Shown here in pieces: positions 31,301-56,005 of a DNA stretch of 64,000 bases. Both the position numbers and the translations under genes were made by a program. The notes below the pieces were generated by a model. That model had not been told where the DNA came from. It made no database searches and was given only the letters and a program-made list of their open reading frames with translations. This DNA is from Propioniciclava coleopterorum (GTDB lineage: Bacteria > Actinomycetota > Actinomycetes > Propionibacteriales > Propionibacteriaceae), in assembly GCF_011393335.1 (NCBI RefSeq), contig NZ_CP049865.1:2002722-2066721 (forward strand). The letters run 5' to 3'. How positions within the stretch are numbered: the first letter of the stretch is position 1; the number at the start of each line of letters is the position of its first letter.

Positions 31301-31305
31301 TTCGA

Positions 31306-32996: not shown

Positions 32997-34393
<1,397 letters not shown>

Positions 34394-34411
34394 CGATCCG
34401 CCGAGCAACCG

Positions 34412-35296
34412 ATGTTGCTGCTGGTCCCTGCGGACCCGCTGCGGGGTGCCCGCCCGGATCCGCACTGGGCCCGGGAGTACGAGGCCGCGCTCGCGCTCGG
34501 CCTGGACGTGGCCCTGCTGGACCACGACGCCGCCGAGCGCGGGGACGCCGCCGCGGCGGTCCACCGCGTGCCCGCCTCGGCCGACGTCGTCTACCGCGGC
34601 TGGATGCTGACCGCGGGGCAGTACGCGGGGGTGGCCGGCGCGCTGGCGGGCCGCGGCGCGCGGCTGCGCACCAGTCCGGACGCCTTCCGCGCCGCCCACG
34701 AGCTGCCCGGCTGGGCGCCGACGTTCGAGGGGCTGACCCCCGACACCGCGGTCGCAGACGGCTTCGACCGGCCGGCGTTCGAGGCGGCGCTGGACCGGCT
34801 CGGCCCCGGTGCCGCGGTGCTGCGGGACCACGTGAAGTCGGCCAAGCAGGACTGGGAGACTGCGTGCTTCGTGCCGGAGGCGTCCGACCGGGAGCGGGCG
34901 TGGCGCGTGGCGCAGAACCTGATCCGGATCAGGGGCGACCACGCCGTCGGCGGCCTGGTGGCCCGCCGCTTCGAGGAGCTGACCGGCCCCGAACTGCGCA
35001 GCTGGTGGGTCGACGGCGCGCTGGTGTGCATCGGCGCCCACCCGGACGAACCCGACGCCGACACCCCGGGCGGCAAGGGCGTCGCCGCCTGCGACGAGTC
35101 GCCCCGCGACCCGGCCCTGGTCGCCTTCCTGGAGGCCATCGGCGTCCGGGTGCGCGGGCTGGGCCTGCCGTTCGTGACGGTCGACCTGGCCCGCGGCGCC
35201 GACCGCTGGTGGGTCATCGAACTGGGCGACGGCCAGGTCAGCGACCTGCGCCGCGACGCCGACCCGCGCGTCCTGCTGCGGGCGCTCGCCGAGTGA
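34412..35296 (+). CDS. ATP-grasp domain protein
   Basis: A 294-residue protein. The C-terminal half has the ATP-grasp arrangement: a lysine in DHVKSAKQDWE, a basic IRIRGDHAVGG segment, and the metal-site strand WWVIELGDGQVSDL (E and D in place of the ExN pattern). It resembles ATP-grasp proteins annotated only by domain (DUF4343-like). The reaction is unknown. It lies 18 bp after fumC and is probably co-transcribed. Confidence 0.8.
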   Translation: MLLLVPADPLRGARPDPHWAREYEAALALGLDVALLDHDAAERGDAAAAVHRVPASADVVYRGWMLTAGQYAGVAGALAGRGARLRTSPDAFRAAHELPGWAPTFEGLTPDTAVADGFDRPAFEAALDRLGPGAAVLRDHVKSAKQDWETACFVPEASDRERAWRVAQNLIRIRGDHAVGGLVARRFEELTGPELRSWWVDGALVCIGAHPDEPDADTPGGKGVAACDESPRDPALVAFLEAIGVRVRGLGLPFVTVDLARGADRWWVIELGDGQVSDLRRDADPRVLLRALAE

Positions 35297-35399
35297 GCCG
35301 GACGCCGTCCCGGCGGGAGGAGCGCTGCAGTCGGGCGCTGCCGGGCCGCGGACGCAGTCGATCGACGGGGCGTCCGACCGTGGGGTTAGGCTCGGACGG

Positions 35400-36260
35400 G
35401 TGAGGATCGCCACCTGGAACGTGAACTCGGTCAAGCAGCGCGTGCCCCGGCTGCTGCCCTGGCTGGACGAGCGCAAGCCCGACGTCGTGTGCCTGCAGGA
35501 GACCAAGCTGAGCGACGAGGCGTTCGCCGACCTGCTCGCCGGTCCGCTGGCCGAGCGCGGCTACACCTTCGCCCACCACGGACAGGGCCAGTGGAACGGG
35601 GTGGCGCTGCTGTCGCGGGTGGGGCTCGCGGACGTGGAGCGCGGCTTCCCGGGGCAGCCCGACTTCGCCGACCGGGCCGAGGCGCGCGCCATCGGCGCCG
35701 ACTGCGGCGGGGTGAAGGTGTGGAGCCTCTACGTGCCCAACGGGCGCGAGGTCGACTCCGACCACTACGCCTACAAGCTCAGCTGGCTGGACGCCCTGGC
35801 GGCGCACGCGGCGTCCGGGCCGGGCGACGTGGCGCTGTGCGGCGACATGAACATCGCCCCCGCGGACGCCGATCTGTTCGACCCGGCCGCCTACGTCGGC
35901 CACACCCACGTCACGCCCCGGGAGCGCGAGCGGCTCGCCGCGTTCGGGCTCGTCGACGTGATGCGGGAGCGCTGGCCCGATGAGCGGGTCTTCTCCTACT
36001 GGGACTACCGCGCGGGCATGTTCCACCAGGACCTCGGCATGCGGATCGACCTGGTTCTCGCCTCGGGGCCGGTCGCCGGGCGCGTCCGGGCGACGTGGGT
36101 CGACCGGGCCGCACGCAAGGGCAAGCTGCCCAGCGACCACGCGCCCGTGATCGTGGACCTGGACGTCGCGCCCGACGGCGACATCGGTCCGGTCGTGCCG
36201 CCGCCGTCGCGTCCAGCGCGGGGACGCCGCGGCGTCACGCTGCCGCAGGGGTCGCGGTAG
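35400..36260 (+). CDS. xthA: Exodeoxyribonuclease III / AP endonuclease
   Basis: A 286-residue base-excision repair nuclease of the ExoIII family. It starts MRIATWNVNSVKQR, has the metal-binding Glu in VCLQETKLSDE, Tyr in SLYVPNGRE, the GDMNIAPADAD segment, IDLVLAS and the catalytic SDHAPV at the end. Start is GTG at 35400. A short disordered tail (SRPARGRRG) follows the catalytic domain. Confidence 0.95.
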   Translation: MRIATWNVNSVKQRVPRLLPWLDERKPDVVCLQETKLSDEAFADLLAGPLAERGYTFAHHGQGQWNGVALLSRVGLADVERGFPGQPDFADRAEARAIGADCGGVKVWSLYVPNGREVDSDHYAYKLSWLDALAAHAASGPGDVALCGDMNIAPADADLFDPAAYVGHTHVTPRERERLAAFGLVDVMRERWPDERVFSYWDYRAGMFHQDLGMRIDLVLASGPVAGRVRATWVDRAARKGKLPSDHAPVIVDLDVAPDGDIGPVVPPPSRPARGRRGVTLPQGSR

Positions 36261-36316
36261 GCCGCCGAAATGGCACGGCACGGGGGCGACCTCGAACGGA
36301 CGACGCGGACGGCGGC

Positions 36317-37192
36317 GTGACGCGTCATGCCGGTGACCGTGCCGGCGAGGGGACGCACAACACCGGTGATCGGGCGGCCCAGGTGGCCGTGCTGGTCGCC
36401 CTGAACGAGGCCGATCTGCTCCGCGCGTTCGCGCTGGAGCGCGCGCCCCGCTGGGTACGGGGCACTGTGGCACGACCGTTCCGCGGCCGCGTCCGGCGCC
36501 TGGCCGAACAACTGGCGGACTTCGACGCCGCGGTCGCGGCGGTGGGGCTGCCGGCGGCGTCCGCGGCGATGCTCGCTCACCTCGTGCCGCGGCTGACCGT
36601 GCGCGGTGCCGCGCCGGCGACTGGTCCGATCCTCGTGGTCGCGAACCATCCCGGGCTGTTCGACGCGCTCGCCCTGTTCGCCGCGCTCGGCCGCGACGAC
36701 GTGGCCGTGGTCGCCCTGGATCACCCCTTCCTGCGGGCGCTCCCCGCGCTGCGCGCGCACGTGATCCCGGTGCCGGCGGAGGGACCGCGCGCCGGGGTGC
36801 TGCGCGCGATGGCGGCACGGTTGGGGTCCGGCGGGGCCGTCGTGACGTTCCCGGCCGGCGCCATCGAACCCGACCCGGGCGTCCGGGACGCGACGGCGTC
36901 GTTGGCGCGCTGGTCGGGCAGCGGCGCGACGGTGCTGCGCTTGGCGCCCGGTTCGCGGATCGTCCCGGCGGTGATCAGCGGCGTGCACACGGCCCGCGCC
37001 TTGGACCACCCGCTGACGCGGCTGCGGCGGCGTCCCGCCGACCGGGAGTGGCTCGCCGCGGTCGGGCAGCTACTGAGCGCCCGGTGGCGGACGCGGCACG
37101 TCACCGTCCGGTTCGGCGCCCCCATCGACGACGCCGACGGGGTGCCGGCCGCGGTCGGCGACCTGCTGGCCGCCGCCAGATGCGCGGGCTGA
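36317..37192 (+). CDS. 1-acylglycerol-3-phosphate acyltransferase-like (PlsC superfamily)
   Basis: About 291 residues. Acyltransferase motif I is VANHPGLFDALAL (NHx4D), motif III-like VTFPAGAIEPD follows, and IVPAVISGVH is the expected strand. There is no clear membrane anchor. Phospholipid acylation is the usual role, but acceptors vary. The start is uncertain: GTG 36317 gives a reasonable N terminus and downstream GTGs exist. It ends shortly before copy B of the palindromic element. Confidence 0.82.
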   Translation: MTRHAGDRAGEGTHNTGDRAAQVAVLVALNEADLLRAFALERAPRWVRGTVARPFRGRVRRLAEQLADFDAAVAAVGLPAASAAMLAHLVPRLTVRGAAPATGPILVVANHPGLFDALALFAALGRDDVAVVALDHPFLRALPALRAHVIPVPAEGPRAGVLRAMAARLGSGGAVVTFPAGAIEPDPGVRDATASLARWSGSGATVLRLAPGSRIVPAVISGVHTARALDHPLTRLRRRPADREWLAAVGQLLSARWRTRHVTVRFGAPIDDADGVPAAVGDLLAAARCAG

Positions 37193-37231
37193 CCATCGCT
37201 GTGCTGAGCGGAGACGCCGGCCTGATCGGTG

Positions 37232-37322
37232 GTGTCGTTCTGGTGCCGCGCGTCGAGTGGGTGCGGCTCATCACCCCTTGTCGCGTGCTCTCGGCCGCCG
37301 ACTGGGGGCACCAGAACGACAC
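37232..37322. repeat. Dispersed palindromic element, copy B
   Basis: A 91-bp element in the gap between two convergent genes. Its ends are perfect 16-bp inverted repeats (GTGTCGTTCTGGTGCC). The core CATCACCCCTTGTCGC (37269-37284) is identical to the complement of the copy A core. It could act as a bidirectional terminator. Confidence 0.88.
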
Positions 37323-37393
37323 CGACCGGCACGGTGGCGCCGAGGCCGCAGCCGTGGGTGTCGACCAGAAGGTGTTGAGGCGGGGTGGACGGC

Positions 37394-37708
37394 TCAGTAG
37401 CTCGTGCCGGGGCCGGGGCGGTAGACGAGGTCGTCGTAGTCGGGGTGGCGGTTGATCCAGTCGCTGACGAACGGGCAGGTCGAGAGCACCTGCATGCCCT
37501 GGCTCCGGACATGATCGAGGGTGGCCTGCACCAGCCGACTTCCCAGGCCGAGCCGCTCCCAGCGGCGACTCACCTCGGTGTGGGTGAAGACGATGATCTC
37601 GCTGGTCTGGTCGTAGGAGGCCCACCCCAGCACCTTGCGCCCCAGACGGGCTTCGAAGCGGCGGCGTTCGGGGTTGTCGATGACCTCGACACCGTCCAGT
37701 TCGTCCAT
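37394..37708 (-). CDS. Small GNAT-like N-acetyltransferase
   Basis: A 104-residue protein of the short GNAT/YidJ-type group. The acetyl-CoA loop reads RRWERLGLGSRLVQATLDHVR and the C terminus has the family CPFVSDWINRHPDY motif. It carries only the C-terminal half of a classical GNAT fold, as normal for this subfamily. Acceptor unknown. Its 3' end faces the palindromic element. Confidence 0.9.
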   Translation of the reverse strand: MDELDGVEVIDNPERRRFEARLGRKVLGWASYDQTSEIIVFTHTEVSRRWERLGLGSRLVQATLDHVRSQGMQVLSTCPFVSDWINRHPDYDDLVYRPGPGTSY

Positions 37709-37820
37709 GCTGCATCATACGACGACGGCTCACCCCCTCCGGGGGAGCGCCGTCTCGGTGACGCCGTTCGGCGGTCGGCTCACGTCGCCATGGGGCGACT
37801 CGGGGCAGTGCCGGCCGGCC

Positions 37821-37889
37821 GCGATGTCAGGGCCTCCACCGTGGAGGCGCCAGTCCCCGCGATGTCAGGGGGTCTCCACCGTGGGGGCG
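37821..37889. repeat. 38-bp-spaced direct repeat 3' of the SIMPL gene
   Basis: GCGATGTCAGGG followed by a CTCCACCGTGG hairpin occurs twice (from 37821 and 37859). The first contains CCTCCAC-C-GTGGAGG. It sits between the GNAT start and the SIMPL stop and may serve as terminator for the latter. Confidence 0.6.
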
Positions 37890-37917
37890 GTCATCGTGGG
37901 GGGCGCCGACGAGCCGA

Positions 37918-38583
37918 TCAGTGCTCGGCGCGGAACCGGGCGTGCACCTTCGCCGAGCCGCGGACGTCCTCGGGGGAGAGTTCGGTGGTCTCCGCGACAG
38001 CCTTGCCGCGCATCATCACGCCGGCGGGGCCGTCGTAGGCGACGGCGGGCATCGGGCCGTTCTCGCCGAGGAGGCCGGGGTCCGCGACCTGCTCGACTTG
38101 GATCGTCGCGTAGCCGCAGGCTGTGGCGATCGCGGTGGCGCGCTGGCGGGCGTCGGCCACGGCGTCCGTGAGCGCCTTCGCCTCCACCTCCAAGCGGGTC
38201 GCATCGGTCAGCGCCCATTCGACGTACCCGACGTTGACGTCCTCGTCCGCGCCCCACCGGGTCACCGCGGCGGCGAGTTCGGTGAAGTCGCGGAACTTCA
38301 CCTGGATGCGCGCCGACGCCGAGTACCGGCGCGGCCCGGGCTTGCCCTGGGGGTTGGTCGGCTGCCACGAGGAGGTGGTCAGCGGACCGACGCTGAACCA
38401 CGTCACCGGGGCGTCGTCGCCGGCCGCGAGCCGGCGCACCTCGGCGTCGATCCGGGCGACCGCGCTCTGGGCGCGGCGGCTGGCGCGCGCGGCGTCGACG
38501 TCCTCGGCCGTGACGCGCATCTGGGCGGTGCCGCGCTCCGGCGGGATGGAGTACTCGCTGGTGCCCATGACGGAGATCTGCAT
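37918..38583 (-). CDS. SIMPL-domain (DUF541) protein
   Basis: A 221-residue protein of the SIMPL/DUF541 family. Typical elements are the start MQISVMGTSEYSIPPERG, the ARASRRAQSAVARID helix and a C-terminal segment with ATAIATACGYATI and VHARFRAE. Unlike many homologues it has no signal peptide at the chosen start (ATG 38583 with AGGGGG upstream), so a cytosolic location is likely. Family function is poorly defined. Confidence 0.87.
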   Translation of the reverse strand: MQISVMGTSEYSIPPERGTAQMRVTAEDVDAARASRRAQSAVARIDAEVRRLAAGDDAPVTWFSVGPLTTSSWQPTNPQGKPGPRRYSASARIQVKFRDFTELAAAVTRWGADEDVNVGYVEWALTDATRLEVEAKALTDAVADARQRATAIATACGYATIQVEQVADPGLLGENGPMPAVAYDGPAGVMMRGKAVAETTELSPEDVRGSAKVHARFRAEH

Positions 38584-38773
38584 GCGGTTGCCCCCTTCGG
38601 CGTCCGGACGCGTCCGCGTCCTGAGGGGACGATACCGGCCCGAACTGCCGAAACAGGCCGGCCACGGAGAGGTCGTGCGGCCCGCGTGGCCGTCCGCGGG
38701 CGGGTTGCGAGGTCGTGTGTGTCGGGCGTTGAGCCGGCAGGACCAGAACCCCGGCGCCCGACGCCGCGCCGCC

Positions 38774-38854
38774 CGGTGACCCGCCACCCGGCGACACGGC
38801 CGCCGGTGACCCGGCCACCCGGCGACACGGCCACCCGGCGACCCGGCCATCCGC
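38774..38854. repeat. Tandem 15-16-bp GC-rich repeats
   Basis: About five imperfect copies of CCCGGCGACACGGCCA in the 327-bp gap (38584-38910) between the divergent SIMPL and nitronate monooxygenase genes. Nothing else is seen in the gap. Confidence 0.7.
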
Positions 38855-38910
38855 CGGCGTGGTCGGCGTGGGGCCCTACGATGAGCGGACGTACGAGAGC
38901 GAGGGGGAGC

Positions 38911-39864
38911 ATGGACGCGTCCCAGCCGGTGGGGCGGCTGCGGCTGCCGGTGGTCGCCGCGCCGATGTTCCTGATCTCCGATCCCGCGCTCGTGGTGGCG
39001 TGCTGCCGCGCCGGGGTGGTCGGGACGCTCCCGGCGCTCAACCAGCGCACCACCGCCGGGTTCGCCGGCTGGCTCGAGGAGATCGAGGCCCAGCTGAGCC
39101 CCGCCGACGCGCCCTACGGCGTCAACCTCATCGTGCACCCGTCCAACCCGCGGCTGCGGGCCGACCTCGACCTGGTCGTCGCCCACCGCGTCCCGATCGT
39201 CATCACCTCCCTCGGCGCGGTCACCGACGTCGTGGACGCGGTGCACTCCTACGGCGGGCTGGTGCTGCACGACGTCACGACGCTGCGGCACGCCCGCAAG
39301 GCAGCCGCCGCCGGCGTGGACGGCCTCATCCTCGTCTCGGGCGGTGCGGGCGGCCACGCCGGCTCGACCAACCCGTTCGCCCTGATGGCGGCCGTCCGGC
39401 CCTGGTTCGACGGGCTGGTGCTGCTCGCGGGCAGCCTGTCCACGGGCGCGGACGTCCTGGCCGCGCAGGCGCTCGGCGCCGACCTGGCCTACCTCGGCAC
39501 CCGCTTCATCGCCACCGCCGAGGCGGGCGCGTCGGACGCCTACAAGGCGATGCTCGTCGAGGCGGGCGCCGCCGACGTCGTCTACACCCCCGCCGTCAGC
39601 TCGATCCCGGCCAGCTTCCTGCGCGCCAGCCTGGACGCCGCCGGCATCGACCCGGACGCCGCCCCCGGCCCCGTCGACCTCGACCACCTCACCCGGCCCG
39701 ATGAGACGCAGGCCAAGGCGTGGCGCGACATTTGGTCGGCGGGCCAGGGCGTCCAGGCCATTACCGACGCGCCCCCGGTCGCCGGCCTGGTCGACCGGCT
39801 GGCGGGCGAGTACGACGCCGCGCTCGCCCGGCTCGACGGCCTGGCGCGCCCCCGCGTCACCTGA
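38911..39864 (+). CDS. Nitronate monooxygenase-like flavoprotein
   Basis: A 317-residue FMN-dependent TIM-barrel protein of the nitronate monooxygenase / 2-nitropropane dioxygenase family. VVAAPMFLISDP starts the barrel, YGVNLIVHPSNPRL follows, and LILVSGGAGGHAGSTNP is the phosphate-binding signature. TRFIATAEAGASDAYK is also characteristic. ATG 38911 has GAGGGGGAG upstream. Detoxification of nitronates is the family role; the native substrate is uncertain. Confidence 0.92.
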   Translation: MDASQPVGRLRLPVVAAPMFLISDPALVVACCRAGVVGTLPALNQRTTAGFAGWLEEIEAQLSPADAPYGVNLIVHPSNPRLRADLDLVVAHRVPIVITSLGAVTDVVDAVHSYGGLVLHDVTTLRHARKAAAAGVDGLILVSGGAGGHAGSTNPFALMAAVRPWFDGLVLLAGSLSTGADVLAAQALGADLAYLGTRFIATAEAGASDAYKAMLVEAGAADVVYTPAVSSIPASFLRASLDAAGIDPDAAPGPVDLDHLTRPDETQAKAWRDIWSAGQGVQAITDAPPVAGLVDRLAGEYDAALARLDGLARPRVT

Positions 39865-39941
39865 CCGACACGCGGCGTCCGGTGCCCGGCCCCACCGACC
39901 GCCGTCCCGACCGGGGGCCGCAGCACACGAGGGGAACAGCG

Positions 39942-40987
39942 ATGACAACGTTCGTCATGGTCGGCTGGGGCTACCGCTCCCGCGCCTGGTGGGAGGCCGC
40001 CCAGGGGATCGGCGCCGAGTGCGTCGGCATGGTCGTCCGGACGCCGCGGGACACCCCGGTGCCCGCCTACCACTCGCTGCCCGAGGCGCTGGCCAAGACC
40101 GGGGCGAAGCTCGTCGTCGCGTCGGTGTCCTGGGACCAGACGCCCGTGATCGCCCGGCAGGCGGTCGAGGCGGGCGTCGGCGTCCTGCTGGAGACGCCCG
40201 CCGCCGGCAACACCGAGGGGCTCGAGGCGCTGTGGCGCGACGTCGGCGCCAGCGGGCTGGTGCAGGTCGCGGAGCAGTACCCGCGCTACCCCTCGCACGC
40301 GGCGCGCCTGGCGGTCACGGCGTCCGGGGTGATCGGGACGCCGACGCAGGTCCAGGTGTCCTCGACGCAGACCTACCACGCGGTGGCCCTGATGCGGGCC
40401 CACCTCGGCCTGCCCATGGGGGCCGCGCGGGTCACCGCGGCGAGCGTCACCGCGCCGGCGCTGCAGCCGCTGTCGCGCGCCGGCTGGACCGGCAAGACCG
40501 AGCCCGAGGACACCACCACCCGGCACGCCGTGTTCGACTTCGGCGACGGCCGCAGCGGCGTCTACGACTTCAGCGACCAGCAGACGCGCAACCTGCTGCG
40601 GTTCCGCCGGCTCGCGGTCCGCGGGACGCTCGGCGAACTGGACGGCGACGACGTCGTCCGCTGGGGCGGGCCGGAGACGATCCTGACCGGACGCATCGAG
40701 CGGCGGCAGACCGGCTACGACCTCGACATGTCGGGCTTCGATTCGGAGCACCTCAGCTACGAGGGGAGGTGCTGTGGCGCAACCCGTGGCCCGGCAACCA
40801 CTGGCCCGACGACACGATCGCCACCGCGACGCTGCTGCGCGACACGCTGGCGTGGGCCGACGGCGGAGCCCCGGAACCGTATCCGCTCGCCCAGGGCTGC
40901 CAGGACGCCGCGCTCGGCTTCGCGATCGAGCAGGCGATCAAGGCGCAGCGCCCCGTGGAGGTGCCCGCCGGCCCCTGGGCCGGCTGA
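39942..40987 (+). CDS. Gfo/Idh/MocA-family oxidoreductase-like protein (apparent 1-base deletion)
   Basis: About 348 residues once the frame is repaired. The N terminus is a Rossmann-like strand-loop (TFVMVGWGYRSRAWWEAA), with LLETPAAGNTEGLEAL and VAEQYPRYPSH recalling the EKP region of Gfo/Idh/MocA proteins. The frame ends early at the G run 40763-40766; an extra G gives LSYEGEVLWRNPWPG and the remaining C terminus. NAD-dependent sugar or inositol oxidation is typical, but substrate is unknown. ATG 39942 has GAGGGG upstream. Confidence 0.8.
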
Positions 40988-40993
40988 GGGGCG

Positions 40994-41090
40994 TCAGCCG
41001 AGCGTGAGCTCGACGGCGCCGGTCGCGCCCAGCTGGTAGGGGGACCGCGCCACTCGATCAGGGTCGTGTCGAACGTCCAGGTGGCGTCAT
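40994..41090 (-). pseudogene. Possible remnant of a DUF1905-like gene
   Basis: On the minus strand a GGAAGGGG site precedes an ATG (41090). With two single-base insertions (one in the G run at 41039-41043) the reading becomes a 32-residue peptide containing TWTFDTTLIEWRGPPY, reminiscent of the start of DUF1905 proteins, then AVELTLG and a stop. It would be far shorter than a full DUF1905 gene. I hold this weakly; it may be chance. Confidence 0.2.
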
Positions 41091-41147
41091 CGTGGCCCCT
41101 TCCGGGTCGCGCGACCAGCACTCCCCGGTCGCGCGACAGGCCCCTCG

Positions 41148-42434
41148 CTAGGCGATCCGGTCGATCACGAGCGGGCGGGCGACGAACGTCTCGCCCTCCT
41201 CGGCGAAGCTGATCGCGTCCGCCAGCACCTCCTGCGCCCGGCCGAAGCGGGCCGGGTCTGAGGTGTGCAGCGTCAGCAGCGGTTGGCCGGCCTTCACGGC
41301 GTCGCCCGGCTTGGCGTGCAACTCGACGCCGGCGGCGAAGTCGACCGGATCCTCCTTGCGGGCGCGGCCCGCGCCCAGGCGCCAGGCGGCGACGGCGACG
41401 TCCATCGCGTCGATGCCGGCGATGACCCCGTCGTGGTCGGCGGTGATGACCTCGGTGTCCGCGGCCACGGGCAGCGGGGCGTCCACGTCGCCGCCCTGAG
41501 CGGTGACCATCCGGCGCCACACGTCCATGGCGCGTCCGTCGGACAGGGCGGCCTCGACGTCGGCGTCCGGTTGACCGGCGGCGGCCAGCATCTCCCGCGC
41601 CAGCGCGACGGTGAGCTCGACCACGTCGGACGGCCCGCCCCCGGCCAGCACCTCGACGGACTCGCGCACCTCGAGCGCGTTGCCGACGGTCAGGCCGAGC
41701 GGGGTGGACATGTCGGTGAGCAGGGCGACGGTCTTCAGCCCGGCGTCGGTGCCCAGGTCGACCATGGTGCGGGCCAGCTCGCGGGCCTTGGCCTCGTCGG
41801 TCATGAAGGCGCCCGCGCCGGTCTTGACGTCGAGCACGAGCGCGCCCGTGCCCTCGGCGATCTTCTTGCTCATGATCGAGGATGCGATCAGCGGGATGCA
41901 GTCCACCGTCGCGGTGGTGTCGCGCAGCGCGTAGAGCTTCTTGTCCGCCGGCGCCAGGCCCGTGCCGGCCGCGCAGATCACGCCGCCGACCTCGCGCAGG
42001 ATGGTGAACATCTCCTGGTTGGACAGGTTCGCGCGCCACCCGGGGATCGACTCCATCTTGTCCAGCGTGCCGCCGGTGTGGCCGAGGCCCCGGCCCGACA
42101 ACTGGGGCACCCGGACGCCGAACGCGGCGACCAGCGGCACCAGCGGCAGCGTGATCTTGTCCCCGACGCCGCCGGTGGAGTGCTTGTCGGCGGTCGCCCC
42201 CAGCACGGTGAAGTCGAGCCGCTCGCCGGACTCGATCATCGCGCGCGTCCAGCGCTCGATCTCGGGGCGGGTCATGCCGTTGAGGAAGATCGCCATGGCG
42301 AGCGCGGACATCTGCTCGTCCGCGACGACGCCCCTGGTGTAGGCGTCCACCACCCAGGCGATCTGATCGTCGGACAGTGTTCCGGAGTCCCGCTTGGTGC
42401 GGATGACGTCGACAGCATCGAAGGGCTCAACCAT
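41148..42434 (-). CDS. deoA: Thymidine phosphorylase
   Basis: A 428-residue pyrimidine nucleoside phosphorylase that splits thymidine into thymine and deoxyribose-1-phosphate for salvage. Hallmarks are the helical N terminus FDAVDVIRTKRDSG, DKHSTGGVGDK, the family signature SGRGLGHTGGTLDKMESIPG and KTGAGAFM. The C-terminal alpha/beta hammerhead domain ends at VIDRIA. Divergent from the pirin gene. No other deo gene is in the window. Confidence 0.96.
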   Translation of the reverse strand: MVEPFDAVDVIRTKRDSGTLSDDQIAWVVDAYTRGVVADEQMSALAMAIFLNGMTRPEIERWTRAMIESGERLDFTVLGATADKHSTGGVGDKITLPLVPLVAAFGVRVPQLSGRGLGHTGGTLDKMESIPGWRANLSNQEMFTILREVGGVICAAGTGLAPADKKLYALRDTTATVDCIPLIASSIMSKKIAEGTGALVLDVKTGAGAFMTDEAKARELARTMVDLGTDAGLKTVALLTDMSTPLGLTVGNALEVRESVEVLAGGGPSDVVELTVALAREMLAAAGQPDADVEAALSDGRAMDVWRRMVTAQGGDVDAPLPVAADTEVITADHDGVIAGIDAMDVAVAAWRLGAGRARKEDPVDFAAGVELHAKPGDAVKAGQPLLTLHTSDPARFGRAQEVLADAISFAEEGETFVARPLVIDRIA

Positions 42435-42498
42435 GGGCTCAGCGTATGGCTCGGACTAGGTTGGGACCACTCGAACGGCGCCGTCCAGGGGAGGCAGC

Positions 42499-43482
42499 AT
42501 GAGCAACACCGAGACCGACGCCCGCCCGATCGTGTGCGAACACGGCGAGGCGGCCGACCCCCACCTGGTGGAGGCCTACGAACCCAAGGACGTGCAGCTG
42601 GGCGGCGAGGACGCGATGCGGGTGCGCCGCACGCTGCCGAACCTGCGCCGCTCCTTCGTGGGCGCCTGGTGCTTCATCGACCACTACGGCCCCGAGGAGG
42701 GGGCGTGCATGGACGTGCCGCCGCACCCCCACACCGGGCTGCAGACCGTGAGTTGGCTGTTCAGCGGCGAGATCGAGCACCGGGACTCCGGCGGCGTCCA
42801 CGCGATGGTGCGGCCCGGCCAGGTCAACCTCATGACGTCCGGCTACGGCATCGCGCACTCTGAGGTGTCGACGCGGAGCCGGGCCGCGCTGCACGGCGTC
42901 CAACTGTGGGTGGTGCTGCCCGAGCACTCCGCGGACCTGAGTCGCGAGTTCCAGCACCACGAGCCGGACGCCGACGCCCCGGCCCCCGGCGTCTCGGCGC
43001 GGACGTTCATCGGACGCCTCGGCGACGCGTCCTCGCCGGTGCACACCGAGACGCCGCTGCTGGGGGCGGAGATCGTCCTGGCGCCCGGGGCGACGTGGGA
43101 GACCGAGGTCGCCTCCGGGTTCGAGCACGGCGTCCTGGTCGACACCGGCGTCGTGGACTTCGACGGCACCCGCCTGGACCCGAGCGTGCTCGGCGTCCGA
43201 GACGCGGGCCTGGGGCACCTGCGCCTGCACAACCCCACGGACGCCCCCGCCCGGCTGATGCTGCTCGGAGGGGAGCCGTTCGACGAGGGCGTGGTGATGT
43301 GGTGGAACTTCATCGGGCGCAGCCACGAGGACATCGCCCGGCTGCGGCAGGAATGGAACGACGCCCCCGACGACCGCTTCGGCGCCGTCGCCGGCTACCG
43401 GGGGCCGGTGCCCCGGCTGAAGGCGCCGGTGCTGCCGGATCTACGGCTCAAGCCGCGGTTCCGTCGGGGCCGTGCCCAGTAG
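42499..43482 (+). CDS. Pirin-family bicupin protein
   Basis: A 327-residue pirin-like cupin. The metal-binding motif is PPHPHTGLQTVSWLFSGEIEH with further His/Glu in MTSGYGIAHSEVS; the second cupin carries MLLGGEPFDEGVVMWWNF. Pirins bind Fe(II) and some act as quercetinases or regulators; the role here is not determinable. The short N-terminal extension before VRRTLPNLRR is normal. ATG 42499 has GGAGG upstream. Confidence 0.93.
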   Translation: MSNTETDARPIVCEHGEAADPHLVEAYEPKDVQLGGEDAMRVRRTLPNLRRSFVGAWCFIDHYGPEEGACMDVPPHPHTGLQTVSWLFSGEIEHRDSGGVHAMVRPGQVNLMTSGYGIAHSEVSTRSRAALHGVQLWVVLPEHSADLSREFQHHEPDADAPAPGVSARTFIGRLGDASSPVHTETPLLGAEIVLAPGATWETEVASGFEHGVLVDTGVVDFDGTRLDPSVLGVRDAGLGHLRLHNPTDAPARLMLLGGEPFDEGVVMWWNFIGRSHEDIARLRQEWNDAPDDRFGAVAGYRGPVPRLKAPVLPDLRLKPRFRRGRAQ

Positions 43483-43551
43483 AGCCGGCGACGTTGCCGG
43501 CCCGGACCGCCCCAGGTAGGCAGGGGCCAGGGCTGTTCCGGGCACGAAAAA

Positions 43552-43577
43552 GCGCCGAGACCGGAAGGTCTCGGCGC
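43552..43577 (-). terminator. Rho-independent terminator of a small minus-strand transcript
   Basis: A perfect 11-bp stem (GCGCCGAGACC, loop of four) that, read on the minus strand, is followed immediately by TTTTT. It is the most canonical terminator in the window and ends the transcript containing the 28-residue reading frame. Confidence 0.85.
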
Positions 43578-43594
43578 GGTCTGGGCGAACAGGG

Positions 43595-43681
43595 TCAGCG
43601 GGGCTGGTCGTGGTAAACGAGATCCGCCATGTTCATGCCCCCGTGGAAAGCCGCCTTGAGGCTCAGGAACAGGAAACGCAT
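43595..43681 (-). CDS. Short reading frame encoding a 28-residue peptide
   Basis: ATG at 43681 to TGA at 43595-43597, coding a peptide that starts MRFLFLSLKAAFHGG and ends MADLVYHDQPR. The N-terminal half is hydrophobic/basic and the C-terminal half polar. A promoter-like sequence lies 56 bp upstream and a canonical terminator 18 bp downstream, so the whole unit is a transcript of about 190 nt. No Shine-Dalgarno site is evident. Base composition upstream is far more AT-rich than elsewhere. It could be a small membrane-active peptide, a leader peptide or a chance frame in a small RNA. No homologue is known to me. Confidence 0.5.
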   Translation of the reverse strand: MRFLFLSLKAAFHGGMNMADLVYHDQPR

Positions 43682-43736
43682 CGCACACACTCACTTATTG
43701 TCGTAAATCTTCCGGCTGTCCGCCGCTCTGGCTACA

Positions 43737-43766
43737 AATATACGCGACTAGCACTCGTTAGCGCAA
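43737..43766 (-). promoter_or_regulatory. Promoter candidate for the small transcript
   Basis: On the minus strand TTGCGC-N18-TATATT. The -10 is unusually AT-rich for this genome and starts a local AT-rich segment that leads into the 28-residue frame. Confidence 0.55.
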
Positions 43767-43945
43767 CAGGCAACGGTTCTGGTTGCACTCGCTTGCCTCC
43801 CCGCGCGATCCCGCCTTGTCGGAGCCGTGATGGGGTGTCCAAATAGGCGTCCAGTATGTGGACGCGCCGGGAGCGCGGCAGGTCCGCGGTTCCGGCGGGC
43901 GGGGCGGTCGCGGGGGGGCGAGACGTCGCGGCGCCCCGTCCGGGT

Positions 43946-44003
43946 GGGTGTGGCCGTGGTCGTCGCGGGCGCGCCGTCCCGGGTGTGGCCGTGGTCGTCG
44001 CGG
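43946..44003. repeat. Two copies of a 23-bp direct repeat, 35-bp period
   Basis: GGGTGTGGCCGTGGTCGTCG and three more bases occurs at 43946-43968 and 43981-44003, in a gene-free stretch. The open frames across 43780-44083 look like repeat artefacts; nothing else was recognised. Confidence 0.75.
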
Positions 44004-44084
44004 CAGCGACCGCTCGAGAAAGGCTGCCGGCGGGGCGGTTCGCGGTCCGCCCCGCCGGCGCTGTTCCAATGGGGCGTGGCGCGC

Positions 44085-44333
44085 TCAGGCGTTCGGGTCG
44101 TCGCGCAGCGCCTCCCGGCGCTCGTCGTCGGCACTGTCCGAGGCGTCCTGCGGCGGGGGCAGGCTCTCGTCCTCGTGGGCCGTCCCGTAGTTCTTGGGGG
44201 CGCCGTCCTCGGTCTGGTTGGCGTACTCGGCGTAGGGAGTGGGGTCGCCCTCGTCGACGATGCCGCCGGGGCGGAGGCGGTCGATCTCCGAGACCTCGCC
44301 GCCGTCCACGTACTCGCCCTGGTTGTCGCTCAT
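44085..44333 (-). CDS. Small acidic protein, unknown function
   Basis: An 82-residue, strongly acidic protein with no hydrophobic core, predicted disordered. It starts MSDNQGEYVDGGEVSE and ends REALRDDPNA. An AGGAG site lies 8 nt before the ATG at 44333, and codon use fits the genome, so I consider it real. Similar short acidic proteins occur across actinobacteria without known role. It is divergent from the peptide-synthetase operon, separated by about 500 bp. Confidence 0.7.
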   Translation of the reverse strand: MSDNQGEYVDGGEVSEIDRLRPGGIVDEGDPTPYAEYANQTEDGAPKNYGTAHEDESLPPPQDASDSADDERREALRDDPNA

Positions 44334-44838
44334 GCGCGCTCCTCTCGTCGGTGAGTGGGTCCGCCGGCCGCTCGCGGCGGGGTGCGGGCCGCGCGGCGGG
44401 GGTGCCGCGTCCGGTCAGCCTACGCCGCGGGTGGTCGCCGCGTAACGGCGTGAGGGGCGCCCGTCCGCCCAGCAGCCCCCGGATCATGCAGCGGTTGGCG
44501 TCGAGTTGCGCAAGGTTGCCAAAAATGGACAGCGCTTTCTTTGAAAACATCGGATGAACGACCGGCGTCGCGCCCAACGACGTTTCACCAGCTTCGGATC
44601 CCGCATGACGTGGTTATCTAGGACCTTCATCTCTATTTTTGTGCGGTTGCGTGTTGTTGTCCCCCTTCGGGGGACACGTCCCCCTGGCCCGGAGCGGGCA
44701 CGGGGAGCCCTCCTCCCGAGGGGGTGACGTCCTCCGACGTGTGACGCCTCACCCATAACATGGGTTCGTTGATCTTCGCCGGTCCTCTCAACTCGCCCTC
44801 GTCAGGAACGGTGTTCCATCTTTCGGGAGGCCCCGCCC
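44334..44838. other. Long AT-richer control region before the peptide-synthetase operon
   Basis: A 505-bp gap. The part from about 44500 to 44640 is conspicuously AT-rich (for example TTTTT at 44636-44640) and likely holds promoters. It is followed by a GC-rich segment with TCCCCC-TTC-GGGGGA (44658-44673) and further hairpins that would form the mRNA leader. The synthetase start has GGGAGG 8 nt upstream. A 48-codon basic frame (44484-44630, minus strand) overlaps this region and is discussed separately. Confidence 0.5.
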
Positions 44839-48888
<4,050 letters not shown>

Positions 48889-48892
<4 letters not shown>

Positions 48893-50252
48893 CCGACGTG
48901 GGGGCGTGGCCGCCGTGGCCGGTGTCCCGCAGGCGGGCGGCTCCCGGTCGGAGGACCTGCCTCCGCCGCCCGGGCCGGCACAACCGGCGACCGGCACGCT
49001 GCCCCACGCGTGCGAGGAGCCCAGCCACCCCCGCCGCAGCGGGCTCGGGCTGCCGATCGTCCGACAGCCCCGGTTGTTCGGCCTGGACATGGCGCGCGGG
49101 CTGGCGATCGTCGGCATGATGATCGTGCACGTGACGCCGATGGTCACGTCAGCCGGCACGAAGCCCGCTGCCTGGCTGCTGTCCTCGGGCAACGCCGCCG
49201 CGCTGTTCGCGGTGCTCGCCGGCGTCGGCGTGGGGCTCACCACGGGTCGCTCCACCCCGCCGCGCGGACGCCGGTGGGTGGCGGCCTGCCTGAACCTGCT
49301 CGTCCGCATGGTCTTCATCGGCACCATCGGTCTCCTGCTGGGCTTCTTCATCCCCGCCGAGCACGCCGAGATCATCCTGCCGACGTACGCCGTCCTGTTC
49401 GTGATGCTGATCCCGTTCCTGCGGGCCTCGCCGCTGTTCAACCTCTCGATCGGCGTCATCCTGGCGCTGCTCGCGCCCGTCGCGAGCCACATGATCAGGA
49501 ACACCTGGGCGCTGCCCGGCTGGGACGCGCTGCAGGGCGTCGTCGAGAACCGGACGCTGCTCGATCCGATCATCGACCCCGTCGGGACGCTGCAGTTCGT
49601 CGTGCTCACCGGCGCCTTCCCGGCGCTGACCTGGTTCGCCTACTCGCTGGTCGGGCTGGGGACCGGCCGGGCGCGGATGGCGAACCGGATCGTCGCGGTG
49701 CGGCTGCTGCTCGGCGGCTTCGTCGTCGCCTGCACGGCTCTGATCGCGGAGTGGATCCTCATGGACGTCGTCGGGGGGCGCAACGCCCTGGGCGCCGTGG
49801 CCGCGCGCACCATGAGCCTGGAGAACTTCACCGACATCCTGGTCTGGGGTGCCACGGGCACCGTCCCGACCACCGACTGGTGGTGGAACGCGGTGCTCGC
49901 GCCGCACACCGGAACCTCGCTTGACCTGCTGTTCACCCTCGGCGTGGCCACCAGCGTGCTGGGGGCCTGCCTGGTGATCGGGCGCGTCGCCGCGGCGCCG
50001 TTCCGTCCCCTCGCGGCCCTCGGCTCGATGCCGCTGACCGCCTACGTCGGCCACCTGATCATGCTCGAGGTGCCCGCGCTGGGGCACGACTCCTGGCCCA
50101 CCCTGCTCATCCAGCTCGGAATCCTGGTGGCCTTCGCGCTGGTCTGGCGGACGTGGTTCGCGCGCGGCCCGCTCGAGGCCGCCCTCGCCCTGCTGACCGA
50201 CGCGATCAAGCGGGCGTTCAGCGGGCCCTACCGGCCGGCGCGCAGCAGATGA
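48889..50252 (+). CDS. Multi-pass membrane protein, DUF1624/DUF418-like acyltransferase (apparent 1-base deletion)
   Basis: About 454 residues. The ATG overlaps the synthetase stop (ATGA). Its first frame runs out, but adding a G to the run 48900-48904 joins it to MTDVGGVAAVAGVPQAGG and on to the long membrane frame. A 60-residue proline-rich cytoplasmic tail precedes about ten helices. RLFGLDMARGLAIVGMMIVH and the late LAALGSMPLTAYVGHLI are the hallmarks of heparan-glucosaminide-acetyltransferase-like / DUF418 proteins. Transfer of an acyl or aminoacyl group across the membrane to the synthetase product is an attractive inference; export is another. Confidence 0.78.
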
Positions 50253-50887
50253 GCGCCCGGGGCCGCTGCGACGTGTGGGTCGTGCCGGTGGCCCCCGGTT
50301 CAGCCGACGCCGTCGCCGGACTCCTGGCGGCGGCGCTGGCGAGTTGGGACGCCAGGCCCGCACCGTTGGTCCGGTCGTGCCGCCGCTGCGGCTCGACCGC
50401 GCACGGGCGCCCGGCGCTCTCAGCCCCCGACGCGCCCGCCGTCTCCTGGTCGCGGACGCGCGGGGCGGTGGCGTTGGCGCTGACCGACGCCCCGACCGTC
50501 GGCGTGGACGTGGAGGGGCCGCACCCGGACCGCCGCCTGGACACGCTGGCCGACTGGGTCTGGACGCCGCGGGAGCGGGCCGCCGCGGCCACGGCGCCCG
50601 ACGCCGGCGCGCTGCTGCTGCGGGACTGGGCGCGCAAGGAGGCCGTCCTGAAGGCGTGGGGCTGGGGCCTGGCCCTGCCGATGGCCGAGGTCGACCTGGC
50701 CGACCGCCGGGCGACGCGGCCGGGCGAGCGGGACCTCGTCGTCCACGACCTGGGGGATCTGGCGACGGTGTGGGGTGCGCCGACGGCGTCCGGGATCGGG
50801 GGCGCGGTGGCCGTCCCGCCCGGCGTCGCCGTGAGAGTGCTCGACGGGCGGCCGTTGCTGGGCCGCCGGCGGGCTACGACTGCTTGA
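50249..50887 (+). CDS. Sfp-type 4'-phosphopantetheinyl transferase
   Basis: A 212-residue PPTase that transfers phosphopantetheine from CoA to a carrier-protein serine. The motifs are SRTRGAVALAL, GVDVE (Asp87, Glu89: Mg binding) and DWARKEAVLKAWGWGL (Trp127, Lys130, Glu131). An N-terminal CRRCGSTAHGRP element is typical of the family. Its ATG overlaps the stop of the membrane-protein gene (ATGA), completing a tightly coupled operon. It almost certainly activates the carrier domain of the synthetase two genes upstream. The 3' end overlaps that of a convergent lipoprotein gene by 14 bp. Confidence 0.92.
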   Translation: MSARGRCDVWVVPVAPGSADAVAGLLAAALASWDARPAPLVRSCRRCGSTAHGRPALSAPDAPAVSWSRTRGAVALALTDAPTVGVDVEGPHPDRRLDTLADWVWTPRERAAAATAPDAGALLLRDWARKEAVLKAWGWGLALPMAEVDLADRRATRPGERDLVVHDLGDLATVWGAPTASGIGGAVAVPPGVAVRVLDGRPLLGRRRATTA

Positions 50888-51539
50888 CGTCGAGGCGGCC
50901 GCTGTAGCGCGCGATCCGGAAGGTGCCGTCGGTCTGCCGCTCGAGGTAGTGCACCGGCTCGTTGCGCGCGGCGAACGTCACGGGGTGCCCGCGAGCGGCC
51001 ATCTCCAGCCCGGCGCGATACGCGAAGCGGACGCTGATGAGGCCGGTCTCGCCCTCCAGGCCCACCCGGCCGCGCTCGATCGCCTGGGACGTGACCACCT
51101 GGCCGCGCGCGGGCTTCTGGATCTCGGCGTCGGCCTCCCAGCCGCTGAACATCAACACGTCGAGGTTCTCGCGCGCGACGGGTTCGCCGCGCAGCGCACG
51201 GTCGACCTCGTCGCGCCAGTACTGCTGGGCGAGCGGCGTGAGCTGGCCGATCACGGGGGAGATGAGTGCCTCGGAGGTCGGGCGGCGCTCGGGATCCATG
51301 AGTTCCTCGCGGAACTGGTGCGTGAGCGCGAAGTCCACCGAGAACTCCCAGGCCGCCCGGGCCACGTCGGCGCCGACAGCGGTGACGACCTCGGCGTCGT
51401 ACTCGGGTTCGCGGACCCACAGGCTCGGAGCGGCCGCCTCGGGGTCGACCATCGCGGCGCATCCGGACAGGAGCACGGCGGCCGCGACGGCCGCCACCCC
51501 CCGGACGGCCGATCGGCGGCTGATCTGGATGTGGCTCAA
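50874..51539 (-). CDS. Putative lipoprotein, unknown function
   Basis: A 221-residue predicted lipoprotein. The N terminus carries SRRSAVRGVAAVAAAVLLSGC: a twin Arg is present, but the first basic run suits Sec or Tat export, and LLSGC is the lipobox. A soluble mostly alpha/beta domain follows (FSVDFALTHQFREELMDPE, YLERQTDGTFRIARYSG). The family is not recognised. It overlaps the PPTase gene tail-to-tail. Confidence 0.8.
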   Translation of the reverse strand: MSHIQISRRSAVRGVAAVAAAVLLSGCAAMVDPEAAAPSLWVREPEYDAEVVTAVGADVARAAWEFSVDFALTHQFREELMDPERRPTSEALISPVIGQLTPLAQQYWRDEVDRALRGEPVARENLDVLMFSGWEADAEIQKPARGQVVTSQAIERGRVGLEGETGLISVRFAYRAGLEMAARGHPVTFAARNEPVHYLERQTDGTFRIARYSGRLDVKQS

Positions 51540-51668
51540 TGGTCCTCCCGCGACCTCGACAAAGCCTCACCAGTTTACGGTGTCACCCCCCGGAGGGACC
51601 ACGTTATGCCGTGGGTTCCACGCAACGGATCGGCCCTGACGACGCGCGTCGCCGCGGCCTCGGCGGCC

Positions 51669-52181
51669 TCACGCGATCGGCTCGCCCTCCGCGGGTGGGG
51701 CGCCGGGGTCCGCGGCCAGCTCCGCACGCAGGGCCAGCGCCTCGGCCAGGTCCGCGCCGAACACGTCGGCGTTCCGTGCCGCCAACTCCCGGCGCAGTTC
51801 CACGGCGTCGTCCGCGGCCGCGAGCGCGGCGTTCAGATCGCCGCTCAGGCGGGCCTCCCGCGCCCGCTCGAGCAGTTCGTCGGACCGGGCGGCCAGCCGC
51901 AGCGAGTCGGCGGGAGGCAGGTCGGGGCGGGGCGGGGGCTGGGTCTCCGCCTCCAGTTCGGCGGCCCGCTCGGCGACCCGGGCACGCAGCCAGGACCACG
52001 CCGCGGCGGCCGCGAACCCGATTCCGGCCAGGACGCCGAGCGAGAACACGGTCTGCGCCGTGGCCCCCGTCGCTGCGGCGGCTTCCGGGTCGGTGCCGGC
52101 CTGGTAGCTCCACGCGAGGATCGTGCCGCCGGCCACCGCCAGGCAGGCCAGCGACGCGATGATCAAGGTTCGCCGGGACAT
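51669..52181 (-). CDS. Membrane-anchored protein with helical C terminus
   Basis: A 170-residue protein with two membrane segments (about 5-22 and 45-66) followed by a proline-rich linker (PPPRPDLPP) and an alanine/arginine/leucine-rich helical region that looks like a single tetratricopeptide-like hairpin (ARLSGDLNAALAAADDAVEL). ATG 52181 was chosen over an upstream ATG (52202) by the shorter polar tail. No family recognised. Confidence 0.72.
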   Translation of the reverse strand: MSRRTLIIASLACLAVAGGTILAWSYQAGTDPEAAAATGATAQTVFSLGVLAGIGFAAAAAWSWLRARVAERAAELEAETQPPPRPDLPPADSLRLAARSDELLERAREARLSGDLNAALAAADDAVELRRELAARNADVFGADLAEALALRAELAADPGAPPAEGEPIA

Positions 52182-52317
52182 GGGCCTCGCTTCCGTTCGC
52201 AACTGCTGCGATCCACCCTAGGGCGCGTGCCGCGCGGCGCGGCCGACGCCCTGGCGGGTGGCCGTGGGGGGCGGGTTCACCTAACCCGGGGGCGTTTGGT
52301 CTGCCGGAGGGGGCGAC

Positions 52318-52698
52318 ATGGGGGATGGGACTGACGACCGCGTCGTGGAGAGTGGCGGCCGCCGGCTCCTGGTCTGCGCCGACGACGGGCCGGTGATCGC
52401 GTCCACCCAGGACGCGCTGGACCTCATCGGGGCGGCCTTCCGGAACGCGGAGTTCGTGGTCGTGCCCGCGCATCGGCTGGACGCGTCCTTCTTCCGGCTG
52501 GGGACGGGGTTCGCCGGCGACGTGATGCAGAAGTTCGTGAACTATCGGGTCAAGCTCGTGGTCCTCGGCGACATCGATGCCCACCTCGAGCGCAGCGACG
52601 CGTTCCGTGGCCTGGTGGCCGAGTCGAACGACGCCGACCACATCTGGTTCCTGCCCGATCTCGACGCCCTCGACGCCAGGCTGGCCGGCGCCGCCTGA
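52318..52698 (+). CDS. DUF4180-family protein
   Basis: A 126-residue cytosolic protein of the DUF4180 family. It has DDGPVIASTQDALDLIGAAF, a central VVPAHRLDASFFRLGTGFAGDVMQKF and YRVKLVVLGDI, which are the family's conserved blocks. Function unknown; in other genomes members lie beside MarR or ArsR regulators. The ATG at 52318 follows a GGGGGCGAC stretch. Confidence 0.88.
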   Translation: MGDGTDDRVVESGGRRLLVCADDGPVIASTQDALDLIGAAFRNAEFVVVPAHRLDASFFRLGTGFAGDVMQKFVNYRVKLVVLGDIDAHLERSDAFRGLVAESNDADHIWFLPDLDALDARLAGAA

Positions 52699-52752
52699 CG
52701 CGGCTCAGAGGGTGCGTCGAGCGGCCCTGTTGCGCGACAACCATGGTGGCGT

Positions 52753-52786
52753 GTTCGCCGCGGTGGTCGGTTCGCCGCGGTGGTCG
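52753..52786. repeat. Two tandem 17-bp repeats
   Basis: GTTCGCCGCGGTGGTCG is repeated directly head-to-tail between the DUF4180 and GNAT genes, just before a terminator-like hairpin. Confidence 0.85.
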
Positions 52787-52798
52787 GTTCAGCCAGCC

Positions 52799-52823
52799 GG
52801 GAGCGCAGGAGGCGGGCGCTCCC
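52799..52823. terminator. Hairpin between convergent DUF4180 and GNAT genes
   Basis: GGGAGCGC-N9-GCGCTCCC, an 8-bp perfect stem ending one base before the GNAT stop codon. It can serve both strands. Confidence 0.5.
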
Positions 52824-52824
52824 A

Positions 52825-53382
52825 CTAGTCCCGGGGGAGGGCGAGTTCGACCACGACGCGGTGCCCCCGGCGGTGCACCTCGCGGAAACCGTGGGACAGG
52901 AACGTGCTCAGGACGCCGGTGTAGAGGTCGCCCCCGGGCAGGCGACCGCCGTCGGTGTCGACCGGACGCGCCAGCAGGCGGCTCGCCGCGTTGCGCTCGG
53001 CGTGGTCGACGGCGGCCTCGAGCATCTCGGTGGCGATGCCGGTGTGCCGCGCCACCGGCCGGACGACGAAGCAGGTGATGGCCCACGTGGCCGGATCCCC
53101 CAGCGGGAGGCGTGCGTTCGGGTAACGCTCCCGGGGGCCCACCTCGACCCAACCGGCGGGTTCCTCGTCGAGGTAGGCGATCAGCCCCGGCGCCGGGTGC
53201 TGGCCGACCACCTGGCACAGCAGAGCGGCACGGTTGGCCTCCGAGGCGTCGAAGGACCACTCGGGATCGATGAAGTACTGGCACCAGCAGCGGGCGGGGC
53301 CGCCGCGATGCCCGAACACCGAGGCGAGGTCGTCCCAGCGTGCGGGGGTCGCGGGGTAGATGGTGAGGGGTCGTGTCCTCAT
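52825..53382 (-). CDS. GNAT-family N-acetyltransferase
   Basis: A 185-residue GNAT enzyme. An N-terminal segment typical of one actinobacterial subgroup (FGHRGGPARCWCQYFI) precedes the acetyl-CoA core: TCFVVRPVARHTGIATEMLEAAVDHA corresponds to motif A, with Q/RxxGxG replaced by RHTGIA. Acceptor unknown. ATG 53382 has GAGGAGG at 5 nt spacing, so the start is firm. Confidence 0.88.
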   Translation of the reverse strand: MRTRPLTIYPATPARWDDLASVFGHRGGPARCWCQYFIDPEWSFDASEANRAALLCQVVGQHPAPGLIAYLDEEPAGWVEVGPRERYPNARLPLGDPATWAITCFVVRPVARHTGIATEMLEAAVDHAERNAASRLLARPVDTDGGRLPGGDLYTGVLSTFLSHGFREVHRRGHRVVVELALPRD

Positions 53383-53467
53383 GACGCCTCCTCAGGGAAA
53401 AGACGGTGGCGTTCACCGAGAACTGTACGCGCCGAACTCCCTCACCACTAGGTGCGATGCCAGAAAA

Positions 53468-54169
53468 TCAGACGGAAATCGGGGCGAGGCATGCCTCCGC
53501 CGCGGCCTCGGCGTGCGTGGCCATCGAGTCGATGACCGGCAGCGGCGAATCGGCCTGGGAGATGAGGAGTTCGATCTCGGTGCAGGCCAGCACCACGGCC
53601 TGCGCGCCGGCGTCCTTCAGGGCCTGGATCTCGGCGACGAACACCGCGCGGCTGGCGTCGGTGACGATGCCCTGGGTCAGCTCGTCGAAGATGATGCCGT
53701 CGATCACCTCGTGGCGGTCCGGGGCGGGCGCGATGGCGGTGATGCCGTGCCGCGCGAGGCGCTCGGCGTAGAAGTCCTCGGCCATGACCCACTTGGTGCC
53801 CAGGATGGCGAGCCGCTCGAAGCCCTGGCGGGTCGCGGCGGCGCCCACGGCGTCCGCGATGTGCAGCAGCGGGACGCCCATGGCGGCCTCGACGGCCGGG
53901 GCGACCTTGTGCATGAGGTTGGTGCCGATGAGCACGGTGTCGGCGCCGGCGCGCTGCAGGCAGCGGCCCGCCTCGGCGAGCAGTTCGCCCGCGGCGTCCC
54001 AGTCCTCGGCGACCTGCATGGCGCGCACCTCGTCGAAGTCGAGCGAGTCGATCATGATCTTGGCGCTGTGGTGGCCGCCGAGCGCCTCCTGCACCTTGGC
54101 GTTGATGATCCGGTAGTAGTTGATGGTCGAGTACCAGCTCATCCCGCCGATGATCCCGATGGTCTGCAT
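53468..54169 (-). CDS. Aspartate/glutamate racemase family protein
   Basis: A 233-residue PLP-independent amino acid racemase. MQTIGIIGGMSWYSTINYY is the family start. The first catalytic position is Thr83 in LIGTNLMHK instead of Cys, while the second is Cys196 in VLACTEIE. A Thr/Cys pair is known for the E. coli L-Asp/Glu-specific racemase branch, whose members work preferentially on L substrates. It is divergent from a LysR regulator with an operator-like dyad between them. A D-amino-acid supply role is inferred. Confidence 0.92.
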   Translation of the reverse strand: MQTIGIIGGMSWYSTINYYRIINAKVQEALGGHHSAKIMIDSLDFDEVRAMQVAEDWDAAGELLAEAGRCLQRAGADTVLIGTNLMHKVAPAVEAAMGVPLLHIADAVGAAATRQGFERLAILGTKWVMAEDFYAERLARHGITAIAPAPDRHEVIDGIIFDELTQGIVTDASRAVFVAEIQALKDAGAQAVVLACTEIELLISQADSPLPVIDSMATHAEAAAEACLAPISV

Positions 54170-54260
54170 GGCCGCCCCCCTGCGTGTCGAAAAAACCCCC
54201 GTGGCTTGCCTCTATGCTCCCGGGGAGTCGGGTTTCCCGGAAGGCCGAGATCGTTGCCGG

Positions 54261-55177: not shown

Positions 55178-55205
55178 CGGGAGGGGGCGCCCACGGCCTT
55201 GTGGC

Positions 55206-55999: not shown

Positions 56000-56005
56000 G
56001 AGGTT

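Follow-up and report, generated by a model that had tools for sequence, protein, structure and literature searches.

Genes of fewer than 30 codons are rarely annotated, and a common role of such bacterial peptides is that of a membrane-associated regulator. KdpF is a stand-alone microprotein that acts on a membrane complex, while TisB and Ibs are type I toxins consisting of short hydrophobic peptides. CydX is described as a stand-alone microprotein acting on a membrane complex (PMC4325964). The small protein sP36 of Methanosarcina mazei is reported to inhibit ammonium transport and to have homologues in the Propionibacteriaceae (PMC10714827).

The unit described here lies on the minus strand of a 64-kb window, the whole stretch of DNA analysed, in the 3.67 Mb, single-contig genome of Propioniciclava coleopterorum (hereafter the window genome). 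From sequence comparison, it is probably a monocistronic, stand-alone gene encoding a hydrophobic microprotein of 28 residues that is specific to its lineage. The putative product resembles KdpF and CydX in being shorter than 50 residues, hydrophobic and overlooked by annotation, with a single helix predicted for it, but differs from them in having neither family similarity, nor a recognised adjacent membrane complex, nor a clear transmembrane stretch. With sP36 it has in common its small size and the Propionibacteriaceae among the hosts, a likeness of description only that offers a hint at the mode of action. The short hydrophobic peptide and the compact predicted transcript with leader and terminator are reminiscent of TisB and Ibs, whereas no antisense promoter or second copy was seen and the transmembrane character is weak. 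The features of the unit are listed in Table 1.

Table 1. Features of the unit in the window (window positions) and its copy in P. flava
Feature	Position	Strand	Details
-10 region	43737..43746	-	CGCGTATATT; TATATT here, TACATT in P. flava; 9/10 positions identical with P. flava
Conserved 5' leader (up to about 55 nt)	43682..43736	-	44/55 columns identical with P. flava
28-codon frame and stop TGA	43595..43681	-	MRFLFLSLKAAFHGGMNMADLVYHDQPR; homologue in P. flava, in-frame indel, codon-position composition
Unconserved spacer from stop to terminator	43578..43594	-	5/23 columns identical with P. flava
Intrinsic terminator	43547..43577	-	11-bp stem, TTCC loop, five Ts; consensus scan; present in P. 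flava
Copy of the unit in P. flava VG341 (G001)			record NZ_PPCV01000012.1; 30-residue peptide MRFLFLSLRAAMVGGMGMHMAEIVFHDQPR

The AT-rich composition that an earlier note had pointed out in this segment was confirmed, with 58.8% G+C at 43545-43770 against 73.5% in the 64-kb window; 0.24% of all 226-nt stretches in the window have a G+C content as low. The AT-richness is relative only, the 28-codon frame having 59.8% G+C and its third codon positions 83%. The order of elements proposed in the same note was also largely borne out. A 28-codon ATG frame exists at 43681-43595, TGA included, and the leader, previously given as 56 nt, is placed at 50-55 nt. The perfect 11-bp hairpin with its TTCC loop (43577-43552), followed by five Ts to 43547, is present and is the best terminator of the window as claimed, having the longest stem among 10 terminator-like sites (4, 0, 5 and 1 in scans of 1-20000, 19900-24100, 24001-44000 and 44001-64000, respectively). 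Since the number of such sites is no higher than in shuffled sequence (one found against 1.2 expected at 42400-45000), the case for the terminator rests on stem length and conservation, 35 of the 38 columns at 43540-43577 being identical between the window genome and P. flava. The hairpin sequence is uncommon as a terminator: the exact site occurs once in the window genome, and sites with one mismatch number two in P. flava, one in G003 and none in G007, P. flava's own hairpin escaping the pattern, as judged by eye, because of the 5-nt loop between the halves used.

The proposed promoter (TTGCGC-N18-TATATT) stood only in part. The sequence is present and its -10 box is conserved, but the presumed -35 element is poor and unconserved: TTGCGC matches TTGACA at three of six positions by eye, the 70 nt holding it are unalignable with P. 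flava (28/70 identical), and the promoter is absent from the results of a consensus promoter scan of 42400-45000. Similarly, the statement that no Shine-Dalgarno site is visible applies to the window genome, where pairing over the last 22 nt of the leader is at chance level (-9.3 kcal/mol, equalled by 25% of shuffles), but not to P. flava, which pairs well (-16.7 kcal/mol, equalled by 0.6% of shuffles).

In the peptide alignment of the window genome and P. flava, 21 of the 28 aligned residues are identical. At the level of codons, five differences are silent and seven change the amino acid, and P. flava has two additional codons. Four of the seven amino-acid changes are conservative (K/R, D/E, L/I and Y/F), the others being F/M, H/V and N/H. 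The indel between the copies comprises 6 nt, that is two whole codons, and leaves the frame intact. Conservation of the frame, the check suggested in the earlier note, was examined on this one relative, and the frame survives the 6-nt indel and 15 substitutions, its amino-acid score lying well above that obtained when these substitutions are placed at random (P 0.0002). When the same 15 substitutions were placed at random 20,000 times, the BLOSUM total was as high in 0.02% and the identities were as many in 0.6% of the placements, and a stop was created in 25%. Identical columns amount to 27/61 far upstream, 72/93 in the frame and 22/50 downstream of the terminator; conservation begins at the -10 box, drops between the stop codon and the hairpin and stops at the terminator. 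On this comparison, the conserved block coincides with the predicted transcript, with a gap from stop codon to hairpin, a pattern expected of an mRNA with a terminator.

The frame also carries a coding signature. The G+C fractions at codon positions 1, 2 and 3 are 0.62, 0.35 and 0.83 in the window genome and 0.61, 0.39 and 0.90 in P. flava, the reference values from four long window frames taken as genes being 0.70, 0.51 and 0.96. The difference between positions 3 and 2 was reached by none of 5,000 dinucleotide shuffles of either copy. Codon scores are +8.5 bits in the window genome and +17.0 bits in P. flava, against averages of about -26 and -24 for 3,000 stop-free shuffles of each copy. 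In both copies, frame 0 alone scores positive among the three frames of the minus strand. One antisense frame in P. flava is also codon-positive (6.7 bits); by eye, the antisense strands of the two copies have partly similar open stretches with no common start and stop. The dN/dS ratio of the frame is 0.41, as against 0.12 for the neighbouring thymidine phosphorylase, and nucleotide differences number 6, 3 and 6 at codon positions 1, 2 and 3, position 3 showing no excess over position 1; the rate estimates are imprecise since they rest on two sequences only. The coding case, as judged from the two sequences, is strong on composition and residue similarity and moderate on rates, and the 28-codon frame is very probably a translated gene.

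The earlier note had offered either a small peptide gene or a small RNA. The comparison supports the peptide half of this proposal but does not refute the RNA half, since the leader is no less conserved than the frame, which implies some constraint that does not act on the peptide. For this conservation of the leader, control of the unit's own translation is the simplest idea. A transcript of dual function, in which the peptide is made and the leader additionally serves as a translation regulator or as a base-pairing RNA, is unlikely, though it overlaps with the microprotein gene preferred here. It would agree with the conservation of the leader and with the synonymous divergence of the frame (0.39), which is lower than that of thymidine phosphorylase (0.71), but the value for the frame rests on 18 sites. 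In the consensus fold the leader base-pairs with the start codon and with the frame as far as codon 11; one of the 48 pairs is compensatory. A small hairpin in the leader also has arms that are unchanged between the species, with a loop that differs; two sequences are, however, too few to show covariation. Moreover, in comparison with shuffles, no better folding is seen for the leader alone (z -0.46 in the window genome and 0.25 in P. flava) or for the leader extended by the early codons (z 1.31 and 0.81).

It is quite improbable that the unit is a non-coding small RNA in which the short frame is accidental. The compact arrangement of promoter, leader and terminator, the conservation of the latter two and the fold of the whole transcript (z -2.0 against shuffles) would suit such an RNA, but the fold signal is due to the terminator; the transcript without it folds no better than shuffles (z 0.65 in the window genome and 0.71 in P. 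flava), and the shuffle folding tests of the two copies revealed no RNA structure apart from the terminator. The codon-position composition, the in-frame indel and the conservative changes likewise argue against it, as does the search of the whole window against Rfam, which gave no match at the gathering threshold. Only two weak matches were obtained (E 1 and 4.2). The best weak match of the region, to Scr3202 (E 1, 20 bits against a cut-off of 52), spans 43500-43581, covering the terminator and downstream DNA only.

Turning to the predicted product, the window genome's peptide matched no Pfam family, no NCBIfam, PHROGs or PADLOC family matched either of the two peptides, and a profile of both peptides matched no PDB chain. 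AlphaFold, run without an alignment, predicts a single helix spanning residues 2-26 of the 30-residue peptide, with a mean pLDDT of 87. The peptide is hydrophobic, its second residue is basic and its polar tail, HDQPR, is constant. The best 19-residue Kyte-Doolittle means of the two copies are 0.97 and 1.29, indicating moderate hydropathy. The usual transmembrane cut-off being 1.6, no clear transmembrane stretch is recognised in either copy, and the helical moment is not above that of shuffled peptides. A role as a membrane-associated regulator is therefore suggested only tentatively, as a possibility in keeping with the common role of such peptides.

Two further readings concern the nature of the peptide. 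A type I toxin, a short hydrophobic peptide silenced by an antisense RNA, is very improbable here: the size, the hydrophobic N-terminus, the stand-alone unit, the strong terminator and the patchy presence are of the kind such a toxin would have, but no promoter-like site was found on either strand at 42400-45000, in a scan that also misses the unit's own promoter, and both a second copy within the host genome and a clear transmembrane stretch are lacking. There is, likewise, only a very slight chance that the peptide is the precursor of a modified or secreted signalling peptide, as the conserved tail and the conserved glycines preceding its variable middle might suggest, for a scan of neighbours in part of the window revealed neither a modifying enzyme nor a peptide exporter, and the nearest genes are those for thymidine phosphorylase, pirin, an acidic protein of 82 residues and a PosA-type synthetase whose frame is broken. 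Since the toxin, the signalling peptide and the dual-function transcript would all be peptide genes as well, their odds overlap with those of the stand-alone microprotein gene.

The neighbourhood was compared between the genomes. In the window, the next gene after the unit is that of pirin, which is convergent with it. In P. flava, the unit, the gene for the 82-residue acidic protein, the PosA-type synthetase and the acyltransferase genes occur in the same order; pirin is missing (at L031 2660-2780), so that the unit adjoins thymidine phosphorylase, which has the same direction and starts about 66 nt past the hairpin. This arrangement, together with a short frame followed by a terminator, is what a leader peptide attenuating a downstream gene would present, but such an attenuator is scarcely credible, given that the convergent pirin leaves no adjacent gene to attenuate in the window and that the five congeners with thymidine phosphorylase beside pirin carry no copy of the unit. 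In the window genome and these five congeners pirin is divergent from thymidine phosphorylase, the contig of G009 holding only the start of pirin.

The 82-residue acidic protein (44085-44333, minus strand; 61 residues in P. flava) is preceded by a good Shine-Dalgarno site and has no Pfam or NCBIfam match; a distant relative occurs in G048 (L071 near 7996-8124), with stretches around EVSE and PKNY in common. Between its gene and the synthetase lies another AT-rich stretch (44500-44700, about 57% G+C), presumably a divergent promoter region. The Pls/PosA-type synthetase (44839-48892, plus strand), with an AMP-binding part and a TIGR02353 part, is split over three frames, and the matches of the acyltransferase-like gene that follows (48780-50252, plus strand) fall in two different frames both in P. 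flava and in G079. In P. flava the synthetase has its breaks at different sites and the acyltransferase is likewise interrupted, while G002 and G079 have long open frames for the synthetase (1,370 and 1,360 residues); the frame breaks may be due to decay or to sequencing error. The 28-codon frame is intact in both species, while the neighbouring synthetase is frame-broken in both. At the PosA loci of G002 and G079, tblastn found no similar peptide, and no terminator-like site resembles that of the unit.

The unit was found by DNA search in two of 13 Propioniciclava genomes, the window genome and P. flava, and these two carriers alone emerged when 147 genomes of the family were searched with the peptide. 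In G003, G006 and G007, which have more sequence beyond pirin, none of the block aligns; in G009 and G011 the contig ends within or shortly past pirin, and whole-genome searches found no unit in either. In a thymidine phosphorylase tree of 12 genomes, from which the thirteenth (fragment only) was excluded, the two carriers are sisters (99/100 on protein, 89/94 on DNA). One gain in their common ancestor would be the simplest history; the unit may have been lost in the other congeners.

Neither the family, order and class samples nor a pattern search across 84,980 species gave a convincing further copy. When 391 genomes of the order were searched with a profile of the two peptides, 11 matched at E <= 0.05, including the two known carriers. 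The remaining nine are weak, partial matches with E from 0.0015 to 0.05; eight lie within open frames of 186-350 residues and one in a frame of 50, and on these values they were judged to be due to chance. Among 394 genomes of the class, a sample that evidently does not include P. flava, the window genome alone matches at E <= 0.01. The DNA pattern, which fixes both ends of the peptide and thus misses diverged relatives, gave six stretches in the 84,980-species collection, P. flava and five others. In three of these the second half is out of frame on translation, and in two (L038, L039) it is in frame, but they continue as longer proteins; all five were rejected. Two stretches in viral contigs also fit the pattern; both encode the same protein start, which is unrelated, and plasmids and phages gave no DNA match to the unit. 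Of 198 genomes of the family, 54 gave a match at E <= 1 to a sequence-only model built on the leader and the first codons; beyond the two known carriers the best match has E 0.002, and many of the matches have common borders. Eighteen loci besides the two known ones were inspected. L053, L054, L057, L061 and L069 seem to represent a single conserved stretch that occurs in either orientation, apparently within a gene, and an intergenic-looking match (L066) shows no evident short frame with a terminator. No report of the 28-residue peptide was found among the matches listed from the literature on Propioniciclava or small proteins.

If the unit is a stand-alone microprotein gene, transcription would begin a few bases downstream of the TATATT box and give a leader of 50-55 nt with the ATG at 43681 as start codon, and a transcript of roughly 185-190 nt would terminate at the 11-bp hairpin. 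The product would probably be a single-helix hydrophobic peptide that may bind the membrane or a membrane protein and tune it. The unit, its borders, the conserved frame and the coding signature are shown by the comparison of the two copies; transcription, translation, the helix, the membrane location and the regulatory role are what we infer from them.

A candidate recognised from raw sequence thus survives comparison between species, with sharply bounded conservation. A fuller account, which we consider rather doubtful though conceivable, is that a new microprotein gene specific to this lineage arose, with a leader conserved alongside it that governs the gene or functions as an RNA in itself; the gene would have become fixed in the ancestor of both Propioniciclava carriers and been maintained by selection as the adjacent synthetase genes decayed. 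The finding alone opens no long-standing question and is a narrow addition to the small bacterial proteins of unassigned role. If translated, the frame would represent an orphan microprotein, present in two species so far, and a case of the origin and persistence of a small gene.
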